Shown here one piece after another: positions 6,432-21,790 of a stretch of 32,408 bases of DNA. The stretch is from a virus, in IMG/VR virus record IMGVR_UViG_3300021087_000047, positions 1-32,408 of that record; one strand, written 5' to 3'. A program made the position numbers and the translations under genes. Position 1 is the stretch's first letter, and every line of letters starts with the position of its first letter. Below the pieces are notes generated by a model. The model did no database searches, was not told the origin of the DNA, and saw only the letters and a list, made by a program, of their open reading frames with translations.

Positions 6432-7475
6432 ATGAGTTATTTGAAAAATCTGATCAAAACGACAGGTAATGAGTTTGCAAGTATAGTAAAAGACGGTGTT
6501 CAAGCCGCTGATGTTAGTGGATACATTGACACAGGTTCTTATATATTTAATGCTTTATTATCTGGATCAATATATGATGGATTACCTAATAACAAGATCA
6601 CAGCATTAGCTGGTGAATCTGCAACAGGTAAAACATATTTCGCACTTGGTATGTGTAAACAATTTTTAGATGATAACCCCGAAGCGGCTGTCATTTATTT
6701 TGAGTCTGAAAGTGCAATCACAAAAAACATGATTGAAGCTAGAGGAATTGATTCTTCTAGAATCGTCATTGTTCCTGTTACAACAGTTCAAGAATTTAGA
6801 ACGCAATCTATTCGTATTATAGATCAGTACATAGAAGATAAAACAGATATGAAAATGTTATTTGTTTTAGATTCTCTTGGTATGTTATCAACAACAAAAG
6901 AAATTGAAGATACAGCTAAAGGTTCTGAAACTAAAGATATGACTAGAGCACAATTAGTGAAAGGTGCGTTTAGAGTTTTAACACTTAAACTTGGTAAAGC
7001 TGGAGTTCCATTAATCGTAACAAATCATACTTATGATGAAATGGGATTGTTTGCAAGAAAAGTTATGGGTGGTGGAAGCGGTCTTAAATACGCAGCATCG
7101 TCTATTATCTTTTTATCTAAAAAGAAAGAGAAAGACGGAAAAGATGTTATTGGAAATATTATTCATTGTAAGAATGAGAAATCAAGACTTACGATTGAGA
7201 ATAAAATGGTAGATGTCATATTAAGATATGAACAAGGTTTAGATAGATATTATGGATTACTAGAACTAGCAATCAAATATGGTATTTTTAAACAATCATC
7301 TACTAGAGTTGAGTTGCCTGATGGTACAACACAATTCGGTAAAACAATTAACAACAATCCAGAGAAATATTTCACAAAAGAAATATTGGATAAATTAGAC
7401 GAAGTAGCAAGACAGGAATTTTTATATGGCAACGAGACTAGAACAGACGATTCTCAAGAATCTGATAACGAATGA
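6432..7475 (+). CDS. uvsX: UvsX recombinase (RecA-like)
   Basis: UvsX coats single-stranded DNA and drives strand invasion for recombination-dependent replication and repair. The 347-residue product has Walker A GESATGKT (61-68), Walker B LFVLDSLG, and a [17 protein letters not shown] stretch like the RecA-core L2 and adjacent strand. The C-terminus is acidic ([12 protein letters not shown]), as in T4 UvsX, where it is thought to modulate DNA binding. ATG 6432 is preceded by GGAG. It overlaps gp41 by 50 bases in another frame, coupling recombinase and helicase synthesis. Confidence 0.96.
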
Positions 7476-8808
7476 AGAATATACTAGAAAAGTATTACCT
7501 TACATAAAATCAGAGTTCTTTTCAGAAAGGGACGAGGAGTTCCTATTTAAACAAATTAGTGATTACTTTTTAAAGTATAAATCTGTACCTACACCTGAAG
7601 CTTTAATCATTGACATTGATGAAAAAGATGATGTTGATGCTCAATTACTTCAAGAATCTATAAATCTTATTCAAGAAATAAAAACAGACACTTCAAATAC
7701 TCCTGATGAATGGTTAATTGATTCAACAGAAAATTGGTGTAAAGATAGAGCTGTTTATAATGGAGTAATGAGTTCTATTGAGATTATTCAATCTGATGGA
7801 TCCAAGGGAGAAATTCCTGAGATTTTAAGAGACGCTTTATCAGTATCTTTTGATACAAATATAGGACATGACTTTTTAGATGATTGGGAACCACGATATG
7901 ATTTTTATCATACAGAAGAAGAAAGAATTCCTTTTGATTTAGAATTGATGAATAAAATTACAAAAGGTGGATTACCTAATAAGACATTAAATATTTGTAT
8001 GGCTGGAACAGGTGTTGGTAAATCTTTGTTTATGTGTCATGTTGCCGCAAGTTGTTTACTTCAAGGTAAGAATGTTTTATATATCACTTTAGAAATGGCC
8101 GAAGAAAAGATTGCTGAAAGAATTGACGCTAATCTATTAGACATATCATTAAATGATTTAGATGATTTACCGAAGTCAATGTATAAAAAGAAAATTAAAA
8201 GAGTTCAAGAGAAAACAAAAGGAAAATTAATTGTCAAAGAATATCCAACAGCTACAGCTCATTCAGGACATTTCAGACATTTATTACAAGAATTAGATTT
8301 AAAGAAAGATTTTACACCTGATATAATATTCATAGATTATTTAAACATTTGTGCTTCATTCAGAGTTAGACCTGGTAGTAATGTAAATACATACACTTAT
8401 GTTAAGAGTATTGCAGAAGAATTAAGAGGATTAGCTGTTGAGTTTGATGTTCCGATTATGTCTGCTACTCAAACAAATAGAACAGGGTTCGTATCAACAG
8501 ATGTTGGATTAGAAGATACTTCTGAATCATTCGGATTACCTGCCACAGCTGACTTTATGTTTGCTCTGATATCTACAGAAGATTTACAAGAATTAGATCA
8601 AGTGATGGTCAAACAATTAAAGAATAGATACAATGACCCAACATATCATAGAAGATTTGTTGTGGGTGTTGATAGAGCTAAAATGAGATTGTTTGATTGT
8701 GAACAATCTGCTCAAGATGAATTAGTAGATATTGGTCCTGTCATGGATCAAACGGCTACAGGTGAGAGAATCACTGCAGAAAAGACAGAAGATTTTAAGT
8801 ATGACTAA
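7426..8808 (+). CDS. 41: replicative DNA helicase (DnaB-like, T4 gp41)
   Basis: The 460-residue protein is the 5'-3' hexameric helicase of the T4 replisome, partnering the gp61 primase encoded at 25949. It has an N-terminal helical domain (about 1-150), Walker A GTGVGKS (194-200) in the C-terminal RecA-like core, a DnaB-type TLEMAEE segment (221-227), and Walker B IIFIDY (300-305). The length is close to T4 gp41 (475). Start ATG 7426 lies inside uvsX. The TAA stop (8806-8808) is immediately followed by the first base of a tRNA gene, so the tRNA must be cut from the gp41 message. Confidence 0.95.
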
Positions 8809-8882
8809 GCGGGTTTGGTATAATGGTATTATAAAAGGTTTCCAATCTTTTGAAGGGAGTTCGATTCTCTCAACCCGCTCCA
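8809..8882 (+). tRNA. tRNA-Gly (anticodon UCC)
   Basis: A complete 74-base cloverleaf can be folded: acceptor GCGGGTT (8809-8815) pairs with AACCCGC (8872-8878); a D arm follows; the anticodon stem AAAGG/TCTTT holds loop TTTCCAA (8839-8845), giving anticodon TCC (8841-8843); the T arm is GGGAG-TTCGATT-CTCTC with one G-T pair; the discriminator is T and CCA is encoded (8880-8882). It reads GGA, a glycine codon favoured in AT-rich genes. It starts on the base after the gp41 stop codon and ends six bases before the next ATG. Confidence 0.95.
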
Positions 8883-8888
8883 TTTATT

Positions 8889-9677
8889 ATGTTATCTCTT
8901 AAACCGATTCATAAAATAACTTGTTCTGAATTTATAAGTGAAAGACATTATTCCGCTGTGATGCCAAGATTAACAAAACATTATATGGGTTGTTATCAAG
9001 ATGATGAATTAGTAGGTGCTATTACTTTTGGTTGGGGAACAAGACCCAAACATACAATACAAAAGTTATTTCCTGAACTAGACACTAAAGATTATTTTGA
9101 AATAGGAAAAATGTGTATGGACGATTCAATGCCTAAAAATTCTGAATCACAATTACTTTCTTTATCTATTAAATGGTTAAGAGAAAATACAGATATTAAA
9201 TATCTTTTTACATGGGCTGATGGATTAGTAGGAAAACCTGGTTATGTTTATCAAGCAGCTAACTTTCTTTATGGTGGCTTCTCTATGACAGATACTTATG
9301 TATCAGAGAATGGAGAGAAAATACACCCAAGAACTATACAAGGTATATTACCAAATGAAGATGGTTTAAAGTATGGACATAGACCTAATCCTCAACAATT
9401 AGTAGAACTTAAATTGAGTAGAGTTAAAGGTAAACAATTCAGATACATTTATCCTATGTCGAAAAAAGATAGAAAGTATTTGAAAAAATCAACAGTTAAA
9501 TGGGATTTGAATCACCCTAAACATTCTGATTTAGAGTGGAAAATAAAACTACCTGGTAAAAAAGATTATACACAAACTAAAAAGATGCCATTTGATTTAA
9601 CAAAAGATATGGAATATAACAAAAAGAATATTCAGTCTTATAAAAGTGAATCAAATTTAAATACTTTTTTTAGTTGA
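8889..9677 (+). CDS. Mom-like DNA modification protein (GNAT-fold acyltransferase)
   Basis: The 262-residue protein resembles phage Mu Mom, which modifies adenines in phage DNA and blocks host restriction. Visible family features are the N-terminal HYSAVMP motif (20-26), ELVGAITFGWGTRP (40-53), YFEIGKMCM (69-77), D111, and the YQAANFLYGGF segment (121-131). As I recall, an Asp and a Tyr ten residues apart are catalytic in Mu Mom; D111 and Y121 fit that spacing. The C-terminal 100 residues are a basic extension of unknown role. ATG 8889 is used because the open frame upstream lies inside the tRNA. The assignment is by eye; the substrate and actual modification are unknown. Confidence 0.72.
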   Translation: MLSLKPIHKITCSEFISERHYSAVMPRLTKHYMGCYQDDELVGAITFGWGTRPKHTIQKLFPELDTKDYFEIGKMCMDDSMPKNSESQLLSLSIKWLRENTDIKYLFTWADGLVGKPGYVYQAANFLYGGFSMTDTYVSENGEKIHPRTIQGILPNEDGLKYGHRPNPQQLVELKLSRVKGKQFRYIYPMSKKDRKYLKKSTVKWDLNHPKHSDLEWKIKLPGKKDYTQTKKMPFDLTKDMEYNKKNIQSYKSESNLNTFFS

Positions 9678-9703
9678 AACCACAGGTACACTTTTGTTAT
9701 AAT
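9674..9703 (+). promoter_or_regulatory. class A promoter, copy 3
   Basis: TTGAAA at 9674-9679, an 18-base spacer (CCACAGGTACACTTTTGT) and TATAAT at 9698-9703 with extended TG are visible. The stop codon of the upstream gene (9675-9677) sits within the -35. The predicted start falls on the ATG at 9710, giving a leaderless mRNA. Confidence 0.78.
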
Positions 9704-9709
9704 AGTAGT

Positions 9710-10213
9710 ATGAAAAAAGATAAAAAAGTAAGACAATTATTCATTGATATGGACGGTGTTTTAGCTGACTTTGAGAATGGACTTTCAGAAGTTTTAGGAC
9801 ACAAAGTTAGATTATCTGATGTTAAAGATGTATATGACGAAAGGAAAAGGGAAGTCACTTCTAAACACTTGTTCAGAAGATTGAAACCTCTTCCAGATGC
9901 TTGGAAATTAGTCGATTGGGCTTTAAATTCAGGTATTCATACAGAAATATTAACAGCAGCTGGTACAATAAATAGAACTATAGTTATCAAAGATAAAATA
10001 GACTGGATTAAAGAATATTGTACAGATCATTGGATCATAATTCCAACATTTAAAGGTAGTCAAAAAGCAGCATTTGCTCATAGTAAAGCAGTATTAATTG
10101 ACGATAGACCTAGAAATATTGAATGTTGGGTAGAAGCAGGTGGTATTGGAATACTCCATACTACAGCAGATGATACAATAAAACAATTAAATGACATTAT
10201 CAACGCAGAATAA
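9710..10213 (+). CDS. 5'(3')-deoxyribonucleotidase (HAD superfamily, NT5C-like)
   Basis: The 167-residue HAD phosphatase dephosphorylates deoxynucleoside monophosphates and could tune dNTP pools alongside NrdA/NrdB. HAD motif I is DMDGV (13-17) with nucleophile D13 and acid/base D15; motif II is around T82; a lysine near 119 fits motif III; motif IV is D131-D132 in LIDDRPRN. The start is ATG 9710, not an upstream in-frame ATG at 9674 that would lie in the -35 of class A promoter 3. No Shine-Dalgarno sequence is present, consistent with leaderless initiation. It overlaps the next ORF by 23 bases if that starts at 10191. Confidence 0.88.
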   Translation: MKKDKKVRQLFIDMDGVLADFENGLSEVLGHKVRLSDVKDVYDERKREVTSKHLFRRLKPLPDAWKLVDWALNSGIHTEILTAAGTINRTIVIKDKIDWIKEYCTDHWIIIPTFKGSQKAAFAHSKAVLIDDRPRNIECWVEAGGIGILHTTADDTIKQLNDIINAE

Positions 10214-10408: not shown

Positions 10409-12541
10409 ATGAAACCTTTTCTTGAAGTAATCACAGAACAATCCCCTAATGATAAGCTTGATAAGCTTACACATAACATACCTTTATCTACAAAGAGATT
10501 AAAACAGTTAAATAACTTTTCTGATCTTGCTTTAATGTTTGATTTTGAAGGTTGGCAGGGGTATCCACCTCCAAGTAATTCATCAAAAGTTGCTTTTGAT
10601 GAAATTCAATATCTAATTGGATTACAAGAATTCCGTGATCAATGGGAAACAGATATGAGAATGCATGACACAAAAGTAATAAAAGCATTCAGAAAGTATG
10701 TTGACAAACATAATTTAGAAGTTGATTTAGACGAAATTAAAAGAATTTCAGATCAAGCAGATTCAATTATATTATCACTTAAAAGATTTTATAACAGACC
10801 TAGACCAAAAGTGTTAGCTAACAAGTTGGGTTTAGGTTTTTCATTTTTTCCATTAAAGACAGCAGAAACACCTTCTTATCCATCAGGACACGCAACTCAT
10901 GGAAGATTGGTGGCTAAATTAGTAGCTGATGAAGTTCCATTTGAACATAGAAGAAATATAATAAGAATGGGAGAAGATATAGGTGAAGGCCGAATGATAG
11001 CTGGAGCACATTATCCTACTGATACAAATTTTGGACATTTATTAGGAGATGAATTATATAGATTAGCAAAATCATCTTCATCAGAATTAAAATTAGAGAC
11101 TTTAGGAGAAATGACACAAACTGCATTACAACAAAAAATAGCTGATTTAGACCCCGGCTTAGATGTACATTCAACAACAAAAAGAATAGCTAATACTGGT
11201 GATATGTCAAACAAAGACTTTGAAAAAATACTTAAAGACAAGTTAGATGCTAAGAATGTAAAACTTATTAATCCTAGAACAGGAAAAAATAAGAGTGCAG
11301 TATTTGATATGTTTGAATTTGAAATTGAAGGAGATGATAAAGTATATGATATAACATTAGCAGGTAAAGTAGCTGGTAGAAGTTCACAAGGAACATCAGA
11401 TAATGAAACATCATTTTTACTTGTTTTAGCAGCCAGACAAGCTGGTGCTAAAGATGATATAGAAGATATAGCTATTAAAATGATAGACCCGAATGTTTAT
11501 GGCAAAGTATCTAACGGAAAAGGAATAATAGGAGAAGAACAAGCTAAAAAATTACTAGCTTATGTAGAAAATAATGAGAGTTGGTTTACTTCTCATAGAT
11601 TACAAGTTAATGCATTACTGAAAGCAATAGGTAAAAATATTCCGAAATTATATGTAAAAGATGACAGTTCATTAGATGTTAATACACAAGCCGTAGACTT
11701 ATATAAACAAGATTTTGGATTAAGTATAGCTAGGTCTTTAGATAAATGGAATCCAGCAGATGTATGGTTATATTATGACAGAAAAGTTCCTGACCATTCT
11801 AATTTAACAGCGTTAAATATGTATTTGTATTATTCAATTAAGTCTGCACAAGGTGTTATAGGCATATCTCTTAAAAAGGGATCAGGTATATTAGGATATA
11901 AAAATTATCACGAACCTGATAAAATACATTTAAAGAAAGTAGATTTAAAAATGTCAGCATTAGGCTCATTATCAGGTACATTAGCATTTGTAGGTGATGG
12001 TGTTGATGGTATGAGTTTAGGATTTAGAATTTTTGATGCAAAAGATACTGGTTTAATTAGAGGAGAAGGTGAGAAGAAAGGAGCAGAAGCAGTTCAAGGT
12101 AAAGTGGCGTTAGAGTTATTAGATACTTTTACAGGTAAGAGATGGAAAAATGACATAACTAGTGCTGGTGGTGCAGATATATTAGAATTAAAGAAAGGTA
12201 AATGGTCATTTACTACAAATGGAAAGAAGAAATTTAAAACAGCTAAAGCTAATTGGACATTTATATCTAGAAGAACAAATTTGACATTTGCTAGAGGAGC
12301 TAGTAAAATGAACCATAGTAATGCATTTAGAAGTGAAAATACATTTTTAAAATGGTTAGATAAACAAGATAAAAAGGAGAATGCAGGAAAGGCATGGGTT
12401 AATTCTAAGTTTCAAGTATTAGAATTATTTTCTAAATTACATAGTATGTCTCAAATTGAAGAAAAGAAATTAGCATTCGCTTTATTAAAATACGCGAAGT
12501 CTGAATCAGAATGGTCAGCAGCACATTTAAAGTTAGAGTAA
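10409..12541 (+). CDS. PAP2-family phosphatase fused to a nuclease-like domain, putative virion protein
   Basis: This 710-residue protein starts FLEVITEQ, like a capsid-targeting peptide with an I-x-E site at 8-10. Residues 90-220 carry the three PAP2 acid-phosphatase motifs: K125-x6-R132-P133, PSGH (158-161), and R195-x5-H201-x3-D205, with both catalytic histidines present. PAP2 enzymes release phosphate from lipids or small phosphoesters. Residues 320-500 contain E333, NPADVW with D451, and IGISLKK with S487-x-K489, an arrangement reminiscent of PD-(D/E)XK nucleases whose last motif is S-x-K; this second call is tentative. The C-terminus has beta-like and then helical segments of unknown role. 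No membrane segment is seen, so the phosphatase domain is probably soluble. The next gene starts two bases downstream. Confidence 0.75.
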   Translation: MKPFLEVITEQSPNDKLDKLTHNIPLSTKRLKQLNNFSDLALMFDFEGWQGYPPPSNSSKVAFDEIQYLIGLQEFRDQWETDMRMHDTKVIKAFRKYVDKHNLEVDLDEIKRISDQADSIILSLKRFYNRPRPKVLANKLGLGFSFFPLKTAETPSYPSGHATHGRLVAKLVADEVPFEHRRNIIRMGEDIGEGRMIAGAHYPTDTNFGHLLGDELYRLAKSSSSELKLETLGEMTQTALQQKIADLDPGLDVHSTTKRIANTGDMSNKDFEKILKDKLDAKNVKLINPRTGKNKSAVFDMFEFEIEGDDKVYDITLAGKVAGRSSQGTSDNETSFLLVLAARQAGAKDDIEDIAIKMIDPNVYGKVSNGKGIIGEEQAKKLLAYVENNESWFTSHRLQVNALLKAIGKNIPKLYVKDDSSLDVNTQAVDLYKQDFGLSIARSLDKWNPADVWLYYDRKVPDHSNLTALNMYLYYSIKSAQGVIGISLKKGSGILGYKNYHEPDKIHLKKVDLKMSALGSLSGTLAFVGDGVDGMSLGFRIFDAKDTGLIRGEGEKKGAEAVQGKVALELLDTFTGKRWKNDITSAGGADILELKKGKWSFTTNGKKKFKTAKANWTFISRRTNLTFARGASKMNHSNAFRSENTFLKWLDKQDKKENAGKAWVNSKFQVLELFSKLHSMSQIEEKKLAFALLKYAKSESEWSAAHLKLE

Positions 12542-12542
12542 T

Positions 12543-13730
12543 ATGGAATTTTTAACAGAAGCAGCAGGAAAGAACTTACATTTAGAACATCTTGAAGATG
12601 AGATTCTAAATTTTGGTATTGCTGGTGGAAGGAGTTCAATACAATTTCTACAAGCATTACGAGATATGTTTAAAGGTGGTTCTGGATCAAAATTAAATGT
12701 AACAGTTAAATGGGATGGAGCACCAGCTGTATTCGCAGGGCCGCATCCAGAAACGGGCAAATTCTTTGTAGCTACAAAAAGTTTATTCAGGAAACGCAAG
12801 GCAGACACAGCTTATTATCATACAAACGCAGATATAGATGCAGATAAATCTGGAGAGTTAGCTGCTAAACTAAAAGTATGTTTAGCAGAGTTTAGTAAAT
12901 TGGGTATGAGAGACATATTACAAGGTGATTTAATGTTTACAGATGATGTTTCAACAATGGATATAGATGGAGAATCATATTATACATTTCAACCAAATAC
13001 AATTTTGTATGCTGTAGCTAAAGATAGTAAATTAGGTAAAGCAATTAACTCAGCCAAGATAGGTGTAGTTTGGCATACGACATATAAAGGTGATTCAATA
13101 GAAAATTTAAAAGCTTCTTTTGGAGCTAGAATACCAAGTAAATCAACTGCAGTATGGCAAGATGATGCTAAATATAAAGATGTCTCTGGTAAAGCTAACT
13201 TCACAGCAGCAGATACAGTAAGAGTAACTAATTTATTATCACAAGCAGGTAAACAATTTCAAAGAATAGATTCTGTTAGTTTCAATGCATTTCTTAGATG
13301 GCAAGACACAGTTCCACCAGGAGTCGGGTTTAAAAGTTATCTAAATACATATACAAGAGCTGGAAAACCTTTACCAGCTTCTGGAAAAGCTGTACAAATG
13401 TATTTTAAACATTTTAACGATTGGTGGCTTAAAAACAAAGATGAAAAGAATTTAAAAATGCATTTAGCAGAAATCAGAAAAGCTACAACAGCATTAAAAA
13501 ATGTAGTAGATTTTATGAGACTTCTATTACAAGCTAAAATGATGATTGTTCAAAAATTAAATGATGCTAAAGGAATAGCTAGAACTTTTGTTAAAACTCC
13601 AACAGGATTAAAAGTTGTCAACCCAGAAGGGTATGTCGCGATTGACAAAACAGGTGGAGCTGTTAAAATAGTAGATAAATTAGAGTTTAGTTTTAATAAC
13701 TTTACAGTAGCAAAGAATTGGGATAAGTAA
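12543..13730 (+). CDS. ligase-like covalent nucleotidyltransferase, putative virion protein
   Basis: The 395-residue protein begins MEFLTEAA, with an L-x-E site at 4-6. Motif I of the ATP-ligase/capping superfamily is KWDG (56-59), K56 being the expected AMP-binding lysine. FVATKSLF (75-82) and GDLMF (128-132) fit the downstream core. EGYV (362-365) matches motif IV and AVKIVDK (373-379) motif V, although the distance between motifs III and IV is unusually long, about 230 residues. I recall this family as a domain of unknown function in marine T4-like phages. Whether it joins DNA or RNA, or transfers a nucleotide to protein, is unknown. Its stop TAA overlaps the next ATG by one base. Confidence 0.7.
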   Translation: MEFLTEAAGKNLHLEHLEDEILNFGIAGGRSSIQFLQALRDMFKGGSGSKLNVTVKWDGAPAVFAGPHPETGKFFVATKSLFRKRKADTAYYHTNADIDADKSGELAAKLKVCLAEFSKLGMRDILQGDLMFTDDVSTMDIDGESYYTFQPNTILYAVAKDSKLGKAINSAKIGVVWHTTYKGDSIENLKASFGARIPSKSTAVWQDDAKYKDVSGKANFTAADTVRVTNLLSQAGKQFQRIDSVSFNAFLRWQDTVPPGVGFKSYLNTYTRAGKPLPASGKAVQMYFKHFNDWWLKNKDEKNLKMHLAEIRKATTALKNVVDFMRLLLQAKMMIVQKLNDAKGIARTFVKTPTGLKVVNPEGYVAIDKTGGAVKIVDKLEFSFNNFTVAKNWDK

Positions 13731-14905
13731 TGAGTGCAAAAGATCAAACAAATTTTATAAAACTTGCAGCTAAGGGTTTTAAAGCTATGGCTAAGTCTGT
13801 AAGTTTTGATGTAGAATTAAAAAAACTAGCTTTAGATGCAGCTAAGTTTGCAAGGAAAGGTTATCTAACATTTCAGAATTGGTTTCAAAAATTACCTTAT
13901 GAGGATAAGTTAGCATTAGGTGGTGAATTATCTTTTTTTACGAGACAAACAGATAAGACTATAGAGAAGATGTTGAAATTTAAATTTGAACAGAAAGAGC
14001 TAAAAGATTTTAAAGATATAACAGAGGATGCGGATAAAGGAGCTACATTTACATTTGGTAGATTTAATCCACCAACAGTTGGTCATGTTAAGTTAGCCAC
14101 TAAGATGAAATCAGTTTCATCAGGACATGATGTTTTAATATATACTACTCACACAATAGACAAGACAAAGAATCCATTAACAAATGCTCAGATACGAAAG
14201 TTTATGAATCCTATGTTACCAAGAGGTATTAGTGTACAAACATCTGCTTCTAGAACAGTATTTGATGTTCTAGTAGATTTATATGATAATGGGTATAGAT
14301 ATATTCAAATGGTTGTTGGATCAGATAGAATAATGGAGTTTGACAAATTATTAAATAAATATAATGGAGTTAAATCAAGACACGGATATTATAATTTTAA
14401 ATCAATTAAAGTTGTATCAGCTGGAGACAGAGATCCAGATGCAGAGGGAGCAGCAGGTATGTCAGCATCTAAAATGAGACATCTGGCTTATTCAGATCAA
14501 GAAGATGAATTTATTAAAGCTTTGCCTAGAGGTTATAGATTAGGTAAACAATTATATTCAGCAGTGAGAAAAGGAATGGGTATAACAGAAGATTTTCCAG
14601 ACTTTATGTTGAGTGAAGTATATACTGACACCCATGTTCCACAAGTACATGAATGGGGTTCACAAGAAGGTAGAGAGTATGCACAAGACTTTACACCATA
14701 TGAACCTGTAGTTGATTGGAGAAAAATATCATCATGGAGAGAACAAGAAGATTTACCTAAAAAAGTATTAGCCTATAAAGAAAAGATGTACAAAGAATTA
14801 AAATCAGAGAGAGATGATTTCACAAAAAGATATGGTGAAAGAGCTGATGAAGTAATGCACGCAACAGCAATGACAATGGCTAAAAGGAAATATGGATATA
14901 CTTAA
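13730..14905 (+). CDS. HxGH-type nucleotidyltransferase with extra N- and C-terminal domains
   Basis: The 391-residue protein has a helical N-terminal region (1-96), an I-x-E site at 97-99 (DITED), and then a Rossmann-type nucleotidyltransferase with GRFNPPTVGH (110-119) and the second motif MSASKMR (244-250), as in NMN adenylyltransferases and cytidylyltransferases. THTIDKTKNPL is a signature I recall from related phage proteins. Further L/I-x-E sites follow the domain (ITE 285-287, LSE 294-296), so the enzyme core is bracketed by candidate prohead-protease sites. The substrate is unknown; NMN, nicotinate mononucleotide or a sugar phosphate are possible. It overlaps the kinase gene by 14 bases. 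Confidence 0.8.
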   Translation: MSAKDQTNFIKLAAKGFKAMAKSVSFDVELKKLALDAAKFARKGYLTFQNWFQKLPYEDKLALGGELSFFTRQTDKTIEKMLKFKFEQKELKDFKDITEDADKGATFTFGRFNPPTVGHVKLATKMKSVSSGHDVLIYTTHTIDKTKNPLTNAQIRKFMNPMLPRGISVQTSASRTVFDVLVDLYDNGYRYIQMVVGSDRIMEFDKLLNKYNGVKSRHGYYNFKSIKVVSAGDRDPDAEGAAGMSASKMRHLAYSDQEDEFIKALPRGYRLGKQLYSAVRKGMGITEDFPDFMLSEVYTDTHVPQVHEWGSQEGREYAQDFTPYEPVVDWRKISSWREQEDLPKKVLAYKEKMYKELKSERDDFTKRYGERADEVMHATAMTMAKRKYGYT

Positions 14906-15629
14906 TTACAAAGAAGATGATTTAGTTTTAGATGAAGGGGTTAATGATCCTGGAATATTTAAGGCGATTATACTAGCAGGTGGTCCTGGTAGTGGTAAGT
15001 CTCATATAGCTAAGAAATTAGGATTAGGCACAATGGGTTTAAGAGTAGTTAATTCTGATGCATTTTTTACTATGTTATTGAAAAAGAAAGGTCTTTCATT
15101 AAAGATGCCAGCCGATGAAAATGAAGAAAGAGAAGCGGCTAGAATGGCAGCTAAAGCCTTAACAGATAGACTATTATCAACAACTATTGATGCTAGATTA
15201 GGAATACTTGTTGATTCAACATCAGGAGATCAAAAAAAGACTGTAAATATAATAGCCAAGTTAAAAGCAGTAGGTTATGATGTTAAAGTAATATTTATAG
15301 AAACAAGTTTAGAAACAGCACAAAAAAGAAATCAGCAACGATCAAGAACATTACCACCTACAGTTGTAGATTTTTCTTGGAAGGGAGCTCAGAAAGTAAA
15401 ACCACTCTTAAAGAGATCGGTAGGTACTTTAAATTATCACGAAATAGAAAATGAATTTGATGGAAAAGTAGATGTATCCCTAGCAGGTAAATTAACAACA
15501 TGGGCAACTAAACTTCCAATTAAAGGTCAATTATGGGTAGCAGCTGTTAAAAGAGGACAAGATTCTATGACTACAGAAACCATAAATACCAGTATAAGAT
15601 CATTTTATCAGTTTTGGAGTAAACAATAA
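14892..15629 (+). CDS. P-loop kinase (polynucleotide kinase/zeta-like AAA_33 fold)
   Basis: The 245-residue protein has Walker A GGPGSGKS at 30-37, an NSDAFF segment (DxD-like substrate pocket) shortly after, LVDSTSG as a likely Walker B region, and an ETAQKRNQQRSR arginine-rich lid. This order fits the kinase family including polynucleotide kinases, zeta toxins and chloramphenicol phosphotransferase; sequence reading cannot choose the substrate. An L-D-E-G site at 13-16 lies just before the P-loop domain, so prohead-protease trimming would leave the kinase intact. It follows a ligase-like and a nucleotidyltransferase gene in one overlapping operon, which suggests nucleic-acid end processing. 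Its last base is shared with the next ATG. Confidence 0.8.
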   Translation: MDILNYKEDDLVLDEGVNDPGIFKAIILAGGPGSGKSHIAKKLGLGTMGLRVVNSDAFFTMLLKKKGLSLKMPADENEEREAARMAAKALTDRLLSTTIDARLGILVDSTSGDQKKTVNIIAKLKAVGYDVKVIFIETSLETAQKRNQQRSRTLPPTVVDFSWKGAQKVKPLLKRSVGTLNYHEIENEFDGKVDVSLAGKLTTWATKLPIKGQLWVAAVKRGQDSMTTETINTSIRSFYQFWSKQ

Positions 15630-21376: not shown

Positions 21377-21790
21377 ATGAAAAGCTTTAAAACATATTTA
21401 AGCGAAGTAGCTTTAGGCACCGGAACAGCTGGAATTACAGCTGACGGTGATTTTGACTTTCATAGAATGGACCAAGATGATGTAAAAGCCAGAGTTAATA
21501 CCTGGCTTTCAGCTAATATGCAAATGGAGTTCGCTACAGTTAATGCGGCTCTTATTCAATTAGCTAAAAAAGTACAACAACTTGGTATTTCTTTTGATGT
21601 ACAAGTAGAAGCGGCAGGCGATAGTGGATCGCTTCGAATACCTTTATCGGTATTCGGTGAAAAGGCAGATCCAACAGGAAACTATGTTGACAATTATGGT
21701 TCAACAATTCCAGAAAATCTAGTATTGGATATTCAATACGAGAAAATGCCTACTGGTGGATTTAGAGTATCAGGTAATATTCAGCAATAA
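21377..21790 (+). CDS. virion-associated protein with capsid-targeting-like start
   Basis: The 137-residue protein starts MKSFKTYLSE/VALG. This closely resembles the T4 internal-protein targeting peptide, which as I recall begins MKTYQEFIAEA, and the L8-S-E10 site fits the prohead protease rule. The body is alpha/beta with a predicted helix (EFATVNAALIQLAKKVQQLG) and a DSGSLRIPLSVFG strand pair. No enzyme motif is visible. It is the last member of the late cluster bearing such a start, and is a good candidate internal head protein. Confidence 0.7.
   Translation: MKSFKTYLSEVALGTGTAGITADGDFDFHRMDQDDVKARVNTWLSANMQMEFATVNAALIQLAKKVQQLGISFDVQVEAAGDSGSLRIPLSVFGEKADPTGNYVDNYGSTIPENLVLDIQYEKMPTGGFRVSGNIQQ

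Follow-up and report, generated by a model that had tools for sequence, protein, structure and literature searches.

We have analysed a 32-kb fragment from a T4-like marine phage (IMG/VR record IMGVR_UViG_3300021087_000047, 32,408 nucleotides in full, called the window below), and describe in it a cassette of three contiguous, overlapping genes encoding a DUF6267 protein with a predicted RNA-ligase fold, an (H/T)xGH nucleotidyltransferase (the HxGH enzyme below) and a P-loop kinase (Table 1). The interpretation that we propose, with somewhat less than even confidence, is that the cassette represents capsid cargo injected together with the phage DNA and that it constitutes an end-processing toolkit, most likely for repairing RNA. 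An initial annotation, made from the letters of the DNA and its translated open reading frames (ORFs), had suggested an injected end-repair system at this place; its three consecutive overlapping genes are borne out by the ORF coordinates, and its reading as a whole is partly supported.

In DUF6267, motif I and candidate motifs III, IV and V of covalent nucleotidyltransferases occur in the proper order, and K56 and E362 lie where the initial annotation had placed its KWDG and EGYV motifs. An alignment of 76 sequences shows H13, H16, E18, D19, K56, W57, D58, G59, P61, Q127, D129, H178, Y181, K332, E362, G363, V365 and K375 to be invariant, and in the larger set KxDG is present in 123 of 125 proteins and motif IV in all 125. 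Direct searches of PDB sequences with single proteins of the cassette gave nothing useful. For an AlphaFold2 model of DUF6267 (predicted local distance difference test, pLDDT, 88; predicted template modelling score, pTM, 0.85), Foldseek candidates were re-aligned by VIA-align, and polynucleotide ligases accounted for 48 of the 50 PDB matches listed. The best Z, 8.1, was obtained with a Naegleria RNA ligase (180 aa, 3.8 Å), followed by trypanosome REL1 (7.6), T4 Rnl2 (7.2), T4 Rnl1 (7.0) and fungal Trl1 (6.9), with DNA ligases at about 6; RNA ligases thus score 1–2 Z units over DNA ligases. The model also contains a 120-aa helical insertion, and nothing like an OB domain follows motif V, because DUF6267 ends there. 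We regard a ligase-type fold as very probable, and the predicted fold and the conserved motifs agree with the ligase-like nucleotidyltransferase proposed earlier.

The second protein has the two motifs of HxGH adenylyltransferases, GRFxPP(H/T)xGH and ISxTxxR, together with the matching fold, and its model looks like that of an intact adenylyltransferase-type enzyme. Structural comparison placed PPAT (Z 13.8) and NMNAT/NadM/NadD (Z about 13) in a tie, and Foldseek gave NadD with an E-value (E) of 4e-5. The enzyme class named in the initial annotation therefore stands on motifs and fold, and only its motif wording is to be corrected, to TxGH, with T found in 97% of relatives. The window enzyme matches cytidylyltransferase-like families, and phage genomes annotate the family as 'cytidyltransferase'; a true cytidylyltransferase activity is disfavoured, however, as none was among the 50 matches listed and the second motif is ISxTxxR-like, and the database name is probably a misnomer.

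The profile of the third protein places it in the T4 Pnk/PSTK/Zeta-toxin class, in line with the polynucleotide-kinase type assigned to it earlier. Against PDB it matched PSTK (1.6e-6), Zeta toxin (1.7e-5) and T4 PNK (1.5e-4), the phrog polynucleotide kinase profile also matches the window protein, and the P-loop, the catalytic Asp and the lid arginines expected of a polynucleotide kinase are conserved. Since these motifs are common to PSTK and Zeta toxin, they are not specific for the T4 Pnk type.

The evidence for packaging comes from short N-terminal sequences resembling the capsid-targeting sequence (CTS) of T4. The T4 internal proteins IPII and IPIII start with MKTYQEFIAE/A and Alt with MELITE/L, where the slash marks the cleavage site; in the IPIII propeptide, residues 4 and 7 steer targeting and residues 8 and 10 processing (PMC9026906), and Alt is processed at ITE-6 (PMC5694885). 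N-terminal sequences with T4 spacing and an (L/I)xE end are found in the window on DUF6267, in an Alt-like form, and on the 710-aa protein encoded immediately upstream, in an IPIII-like form, and residues 1–12 of the DUF6267 model are disordered. Of the packaging signals that the initial annotation suspected, these two have the real form, the signal of the HxGH enzyme is internal, and that of the kinase is weak; in relatives, the kinase starts with MKTFAELQE/G (Methylophilales phage Melnitz) or MIPFILKE/G (Pelagibacter phage HTVC008M). Across the family, a CTS-like propeptide with an (L/I/V)xE site precedes the mature start in 100 of 125 DUF6267 proteins, with a modal length of 10 and frequent lengths of 9 and 6. 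The 48 propeptides of ten residues have F/L/Y at position 4 in 46 cases, and F/Y/L/I/M/H at position 7 and L/I at position 8 in all 48, and P1' is mainly A/D/S/Q; this pattern agrees with T4 IPIII. Most of the 25 tag-less proteins start immediately past the site (MAVKNLHLEHLED), which indicates that the module has been gained or lost as a unit.

The same module stands ahead of the HxGH domain in 62 of 76 proteins and also ahead of the PAP2 gene; in other loci it occurs on HAD phosphatases, on an adenylate kinase and on one protein each of the SpoT-type HD and RimK kinds. Against a background of 4.4% for the strict anchored pattern in other ORFs, tagged ORFs are enriched close to DUF6267 (9.1% within 1.5 kb vs 2.9% beyond, p 1e-5). 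Among the roughly 40 genes of the window, the anchored tag occurs on the 710-aa gene and on the gene at 21377-21790, and the Alt-like form on DUF6267. A gp21-type prohead protease gave no match within the 32-kb fragment; HTVC008M has one.

Mass spectrometry (MS) has detected the HxGH enzyme in virions of three T4-like cyanophages, S-CREM2 (PMC10665884), S-SZBM1 (PMC9146016) and S-SCSM1 (PMC9602691), and all three enzymes are tagged (MKNFSSFLTE/A, MRFRQFIIE/A and MKSFLQFLKE/A, respectively). DUF6267 has no tag in these phages, and in two of the three, including S-SZBM1, where the HxGH gene lies directly 3' of it, the tag-less protein does not appear in the accessible virion tables. When the whole S-CREM2 genome was considered, MS had detected 5 of the 7 proteins bearing an anchored tag, compared with 52 of 217 overall (p 0.009), and its tagged virion proteins include a SAM hydrolase and an APH-like kinase; because the tolerance of the pattern was chosen after inspection, the enrichment p-values are to be taken as indicative. 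Virion detection was not predicted by a loose motif ([LI]xE[AGS] at any place within 26 residues), nor, in S-SZBM1, by unanchored patterns; the anchored T4 spacing was predictive in S-CREM2 only. The NMNAT-like virion protein of S-CBWM1 was set aside, since it is related only distantly and its phage is described as non-T4. Packaging of the HxGH enzyme in relatives is thus backed by published proteomics, and we hold it to be highly likely for the family in T4-like phages. For the proteins of the window itself we infer packaging with graded confidence: DUF6267 is probably packaged, the balance is slightly in favour for the HxGH enzyme, and for the kinase it is slightly unfavourable.

Several further tags were noted. 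The window gene at 21377-21790 begins with the T4-like MKSFKTYLSE/V and has tagged homologues in several relatives (L010, L020 and others). In locus L110, the product of 14147-14707 combines a SpoT-type HD domain (HD_4, E 1e-16) with the capsid-type tag MKTFKKYIAE/D, and judging from its sequence it is possibly an injected (p)ppGpp hydrolase. The tags MENFRSFITE and MEKFKSFITE occur at L078:6828-8192, which encodes a RimK-like ATP-grasp protein whose tail resembles a zinc protease, and at L074:3424-4785. In S-CREM2 (L147), gp12 and gp6 are virion proteins with tag-like N-termini, namely a protein annotated as Cas9-like (RFASFMAE/A, at about aa 18-25) and the SAM hydrolase (MKDFDSFLEE); they are possibly injected nuclease and anti-restriction cargo.

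Fold classes, tags, linkage and fusions are supported by computation. In 19 metagenomic relatives, which were found via the kinase, every contig that spans the region shows the order DUF6267, HxGH enzyme and kinase; a PAP2 gene lies upstream of DUF6267 in many of them, and in some an extra stretch separates DUF6267 from the HxGH gene. The co-occurrence that the initial annotation wished to see in relatives is therefore present, and it extends to fusions. The HxGH enzyme and the kinase form a single ORF in about 15 loci (L058 to L109), DUF6267 and the HxGH enzyme form one 591-aa ORF in resequenced S-PM2 and are also joined within profile phrog_455, and further fusions link the HxGH enzyme with PAP2 (L036) or with a nucleotidyltransferase of the Polbeta type (L119 and L132). 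Such pairwise fusions indicate that the activities belong together. In the deposited S-PM2 genome (AJ630128, L003) DUF6267 and the HxGH enzyme are split over two overlapping frames, and in the deletion-mutant genome (LN828717) they occupy the one 591-aa frame; either a sequencing error or a genuine difference could explain the split. In Agrobacterium phage Atu_ph07 (L009, 1-5750), hypothetical genes of similar size (about 250-265 aa each) lie upstream of a 778-aa kinase-domain protein.

Phage records matched number 466 for DUF6267 and 526 for the HxGH enzyme, with cyanophages predominating in both; the kinase matched only 8 isolate records, yet it is common among metagenomic relatives. The nearest named relative of the window DUF6267 is that of Melnitz (52% identity), and others include that of HTVC008M (43%).

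Table 1. Features of the cassette and its upstream neighbours (positions in the window; CTS, capsid-targeting sequence)
Feature	Position	Strand	Support or remark
HAD/NT5C-type phosphatase gene	9674..10213	+	PF06941 E 2e-8
710-aa protein: N-terminal T4-like CTS, PAP2 phosphatase domain, C-terminal domain (phrog_1462)	10409..12541	+	family matches
MKPFLEVITE/Q, 10-residue CTS-like propeptide	10409..10438	+	spacing as in T4 IPIII
DUF6267, predicted RNA-ligase-fold covalent nucleotidyltransferase without OB domain, 395 aa	12543..13730	+	PF19782 E 1.9e-92
MEFLTE/A, 6-residue CTS-like propeptide on DUF6267	12543..12560	+	resembles T4 Alt MELITE/L
Motif I, K56-W-D-G, predicted nucleotidyl-acceptor lysine	12708..12719	+	K56, D58, G59 invariant (76 aligned)
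Motif III-like QGD (127-129)	12921..12929	+	Q127, D129 invariant
Helical insertion, aa 222-341, between motifs III and IV	13206..13565	+	DSSP of model
Motif IV, E362-G-Y-V	13626..13637	+	E362, G363, V365 invariant
Motif V, K375-I-V-D-K	13665..13679	+	K375 invariant
(H/T)xGH nucleotidyltransferase, NMNAT/PPAT type, N-terminal extension of about 90 aa, 391 aa	13730..14905	+	phrog_395 E 3e-49; model pLDDT 87
LKDFKDITE/D, CTS-like, internal in HxGH protein (aa 91-99)	14000..14026	+	N-terminal in relatives: MKKFKDITE/A, MKFKDITE/A
GRFNPPTVGH, first nucleotidyltransferase motif	14057..14086	+	G, R, P, P, G, H invariant in 69 relatives
MSASKMR, second motif, ISxTxxR type	14459..14479	+	S245, R250 invariant in 69 relatives
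P-loop kinase, PSTK / T4 Pnk / Zeta-toxin class, 245 aa	14892..15629	+	Zeta_toxin 3e-15, AAA_33 1e-12
Possible weak CTS (...LVLDE/G) on kinase	14892..14936	+	aa 13-16, without T4 spacing
Walker A, GGPGSGKS	14979..15002	+	GGPGSGK invariant in 26 relatives
N54-S-D56, by-eye alignment with T4 Pnk N33-R-D35	15051..15059	+	N54, D56 invariant

Upstream of the cassette the order is DNA polymerase, UvsX, gp41 helicase, a Mom-like gene, the HAD/NT5C phosphatase gene and the 710-aa PAP2 fusion, which stops at 12541. The late operon among structural genes that the initial annotation described is not supported as worded: UvsX and gp41 helicase (6432-8808) lie a short way upstream, and an adhesin/fibre-like gene lies on the downstream side. 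The Mom-like DNA modification gene (8850-9677, PF25680 E 1e-51) adjoins a tRNA-Gly gene (8809-8882). Homologues of the HAD/NT5C gene are close to the cassette in HTVC008M and Melnitz, and HAD genes recur there. The 710-aa protein, which probably belongs to the cassette, has a PAP2-superfamily domain at aa 122-213 (E 2e-9) and a match to phrog_1462 (E 1.7e-15), and its relatives begin with MKSFxxxIxE or MKTFLQVIKE. It had been described as a phosphatase/nuclease-like fusion; the phosphatase is supported, but family searches gave no support for a nuclease domain, of which a D...GISLKK pattern is the sole hint.

In the mechanism that we propose, a T4-type N-terminal CTS would draw the tagged enzymes into the prohead core during head assembly, a gp21-type prohead protease would cut off the tag after (L/I)xE, and the mature enzymes, trapped with the DNA, would reach the cell on injection. 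Inside the cell they would act as an end-processing toolkit, in which the kinase would phosphorylate a substrate and the PAP2/HAD phosphatases trim one, the HxGH enzyme would transfer a nucleotidyl group, and DUF6267 would activate an end via a lysine-nucleotide adduct. As the enzymes bear a tag or descend from tagged proteins, they probably enter the cell with the phage DNA. The likeliest task would be the repair of RNA, for example of tRNAs that host defence has cut. In jumbo phages, ligase, PNK, HAD and Polbeta are known to be partnered in RNA repair (PMC7824862), and because a ligase fold, a PNK-class kinase, HAD/PAP2 and Polbeta are the RNA-repair ingredients of large phages, RNA repair is our first choice; an RNA substrate and a counter-defence role are what we infer, and the repair of defence-cleaved RNA, taken by itself, we consider possible, while leaning against it. 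Several points weigh against the proposal. To our knowledge, an enzyme of the HxGH type is not a standard component of RNA repair. Foldseek alone gave no significant PDB match for DUF6267 (best E 0.1), so that it is the concurrence of motifs, rank and family purity that carries the fold claim, and a Z of 8 can also be reached by models without clear relatives. The tag pattern was tuned after part of the data had been inspected, the tag of the window kinase is weak, about 90 residues precede the site in the window HxGH protein, which is thus not N-terminal, and the S-CBWM1 protein mentioned above has no tag. The virion detections all come from relatives and none from the phage of the window, detection in S-SZBM1 alone is not enriched among tagged genes (1 of 3, p 0.36), and the proteome authors admit possible contamination by abundant non-virion protein.

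Part of these points, namely the contamination, the result in S-SZBM1 and the internal site of the window HxGH protein, together with the tag-less cyanophage DUF6267, would equally suit ordinary intracellular enzymes, in which the (L/I)xE module is coincidental or otherwise used and virion detection reflects contamination. We regard this as unlikely, because it does not account for the T4 spacing, for a module present or absent as a unit and occurring independently on unrelated folds, for the tags on all three enzymes detected in T4-like virions, or for the enrichment in S-CREM2. Another explanation ties the kinase and the nucleotidyltransferase to the nearby Mom-like gene, as a pathway making an activated precursor for DNA modification, and in Melnitz a Mom-like gene, an NT5C-like gene and the kinase are indeed near one another. 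The DUF6267 and HxGH genes of Melnitz are far from the Mom-like gene, however, and there would be no point in carrying, in the virion, enzymes for a modification that is made at replication, so that we consider this very improbable.

The main alternative retains the injected cargo and changes its substrate to a small molecule, such that the enzymes would restore NAD or CoA after host depletion, in a NadR-like or COASY-like manner, with DUF6267 as an accessory nucleotidyltransferase. Re-synthesis of depleted NAD had also been raised in the initial annotation. NadR combines an NMN adenylyltransferase with a ribosylnicotinamide kinase, and COASY combines PPAT with dephospho-CoA kinase; the HxGH model fits NMNAT and PPAT alike, and its fusions with a P-loop kinase have this very layout. 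In addition, the best PDB sequence for the HxGH profile is NadM MJ0541, although weak, one fusion protein matches nadR_NMN_Atrans at 8.8e-7, far under the curated cut-off, and the S-SCSM1 authors suggest an NAD role for the enzyme (PMC9602691). The kinase, on the other hand, points elsewhere: its profile leads to PSTK, Zeta toxin and T4 Pnk, with no NadR kinase among the 60 matches listed and a weak dephospho-CoA kinase (0.02), and when the NadR kinase domain was considered, the AAA_28 matches were weak (best 0.0046) beside Zeta_toxin at 4e-18. As this explanation also has no place for the ligase-fold protein or for the Polbeta fusion, we judge it rather unlikely, and retain RNA end processing by injected cargo as the preferred interpretation.

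A wider proposal, which we offer as a working idea with still more reserve, is that T4-like phages of cyanobacteria, Pelagibacter, methylotrophs and other hosts share a conserved, exchangeable, tagged end-processing cargo, with the HxGH enzyme as hub together with DUF6267, delivered with the genome and repairing RNA or blunting defence before phage expression. Genes for DUF6267 and its HxGH partner are widespread in T4-like cyanophages and have lacked an explanation; with a ligase-fold assignment and a capsid-delivery signal, both families become enzymes that can be tested and that may act at entry, and injected cargo can be predicted simply from phage sequence by means of the tag rule. In the literature searched, we found no mention of DUF6267, and 'cyanophage' together with 'capsid targeting' led to a T4 review only. 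The virion presence of the HxGH enzyme is already published; what is new, as far as this literature shows, is the tag, the assignment of DUF6267 to a ligase fold, the fusions and the idea of a cargo cluster.

Among known systems, the 'cytidyltransferase' or NMNAT-like virion proteins of S-CREM2, S-SZBM1 and S-SCSM1 are homologous HxGH enzymes found in virions, with tag-less DUF6267 in the same phages, and the accessible text of their reports names no capsid-targeting signal and does not connect the enzyme with a ligase-fold partner. The cassette shares with NadR and COASY an HxGH nucleotidyltransferase joined to a P-loop kinase, but its kinase is of the PSTK/Zeta/Pnk class and a ligase-fold partner is present. 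With T4 Pnkp and Rnl1/Rnl2 and the RNA-repair sets of jumbo phages (PMC7824862) it has in common a ligase-fold nucleotidyltransferase, a PNK-class kinase, nearby HAD phosphatases and, in some relatives, Polbeta fusions. It differs from them in that its hub is the HxGH nucleotidyltransferase, its members are capsid-tagged and known from sequence and models, and DUF6267 contains a helical insertion of 120 aa and stops at motif V. The tags resemble those of T4 IPI-III and Alt, which are targeted to the capsid, processed by gp21 and injected, in being short propeptides with hydrophobic residues at 4 and 7, L/I at 8 and E at 10, or in having the six-residue MELITE form; whereas the T4 cargo consists of an ADP-ribosyltransferase and small proteins, that of the cassette consists of linked enzymes of end-processing type, which are pairwise fused in relatives.

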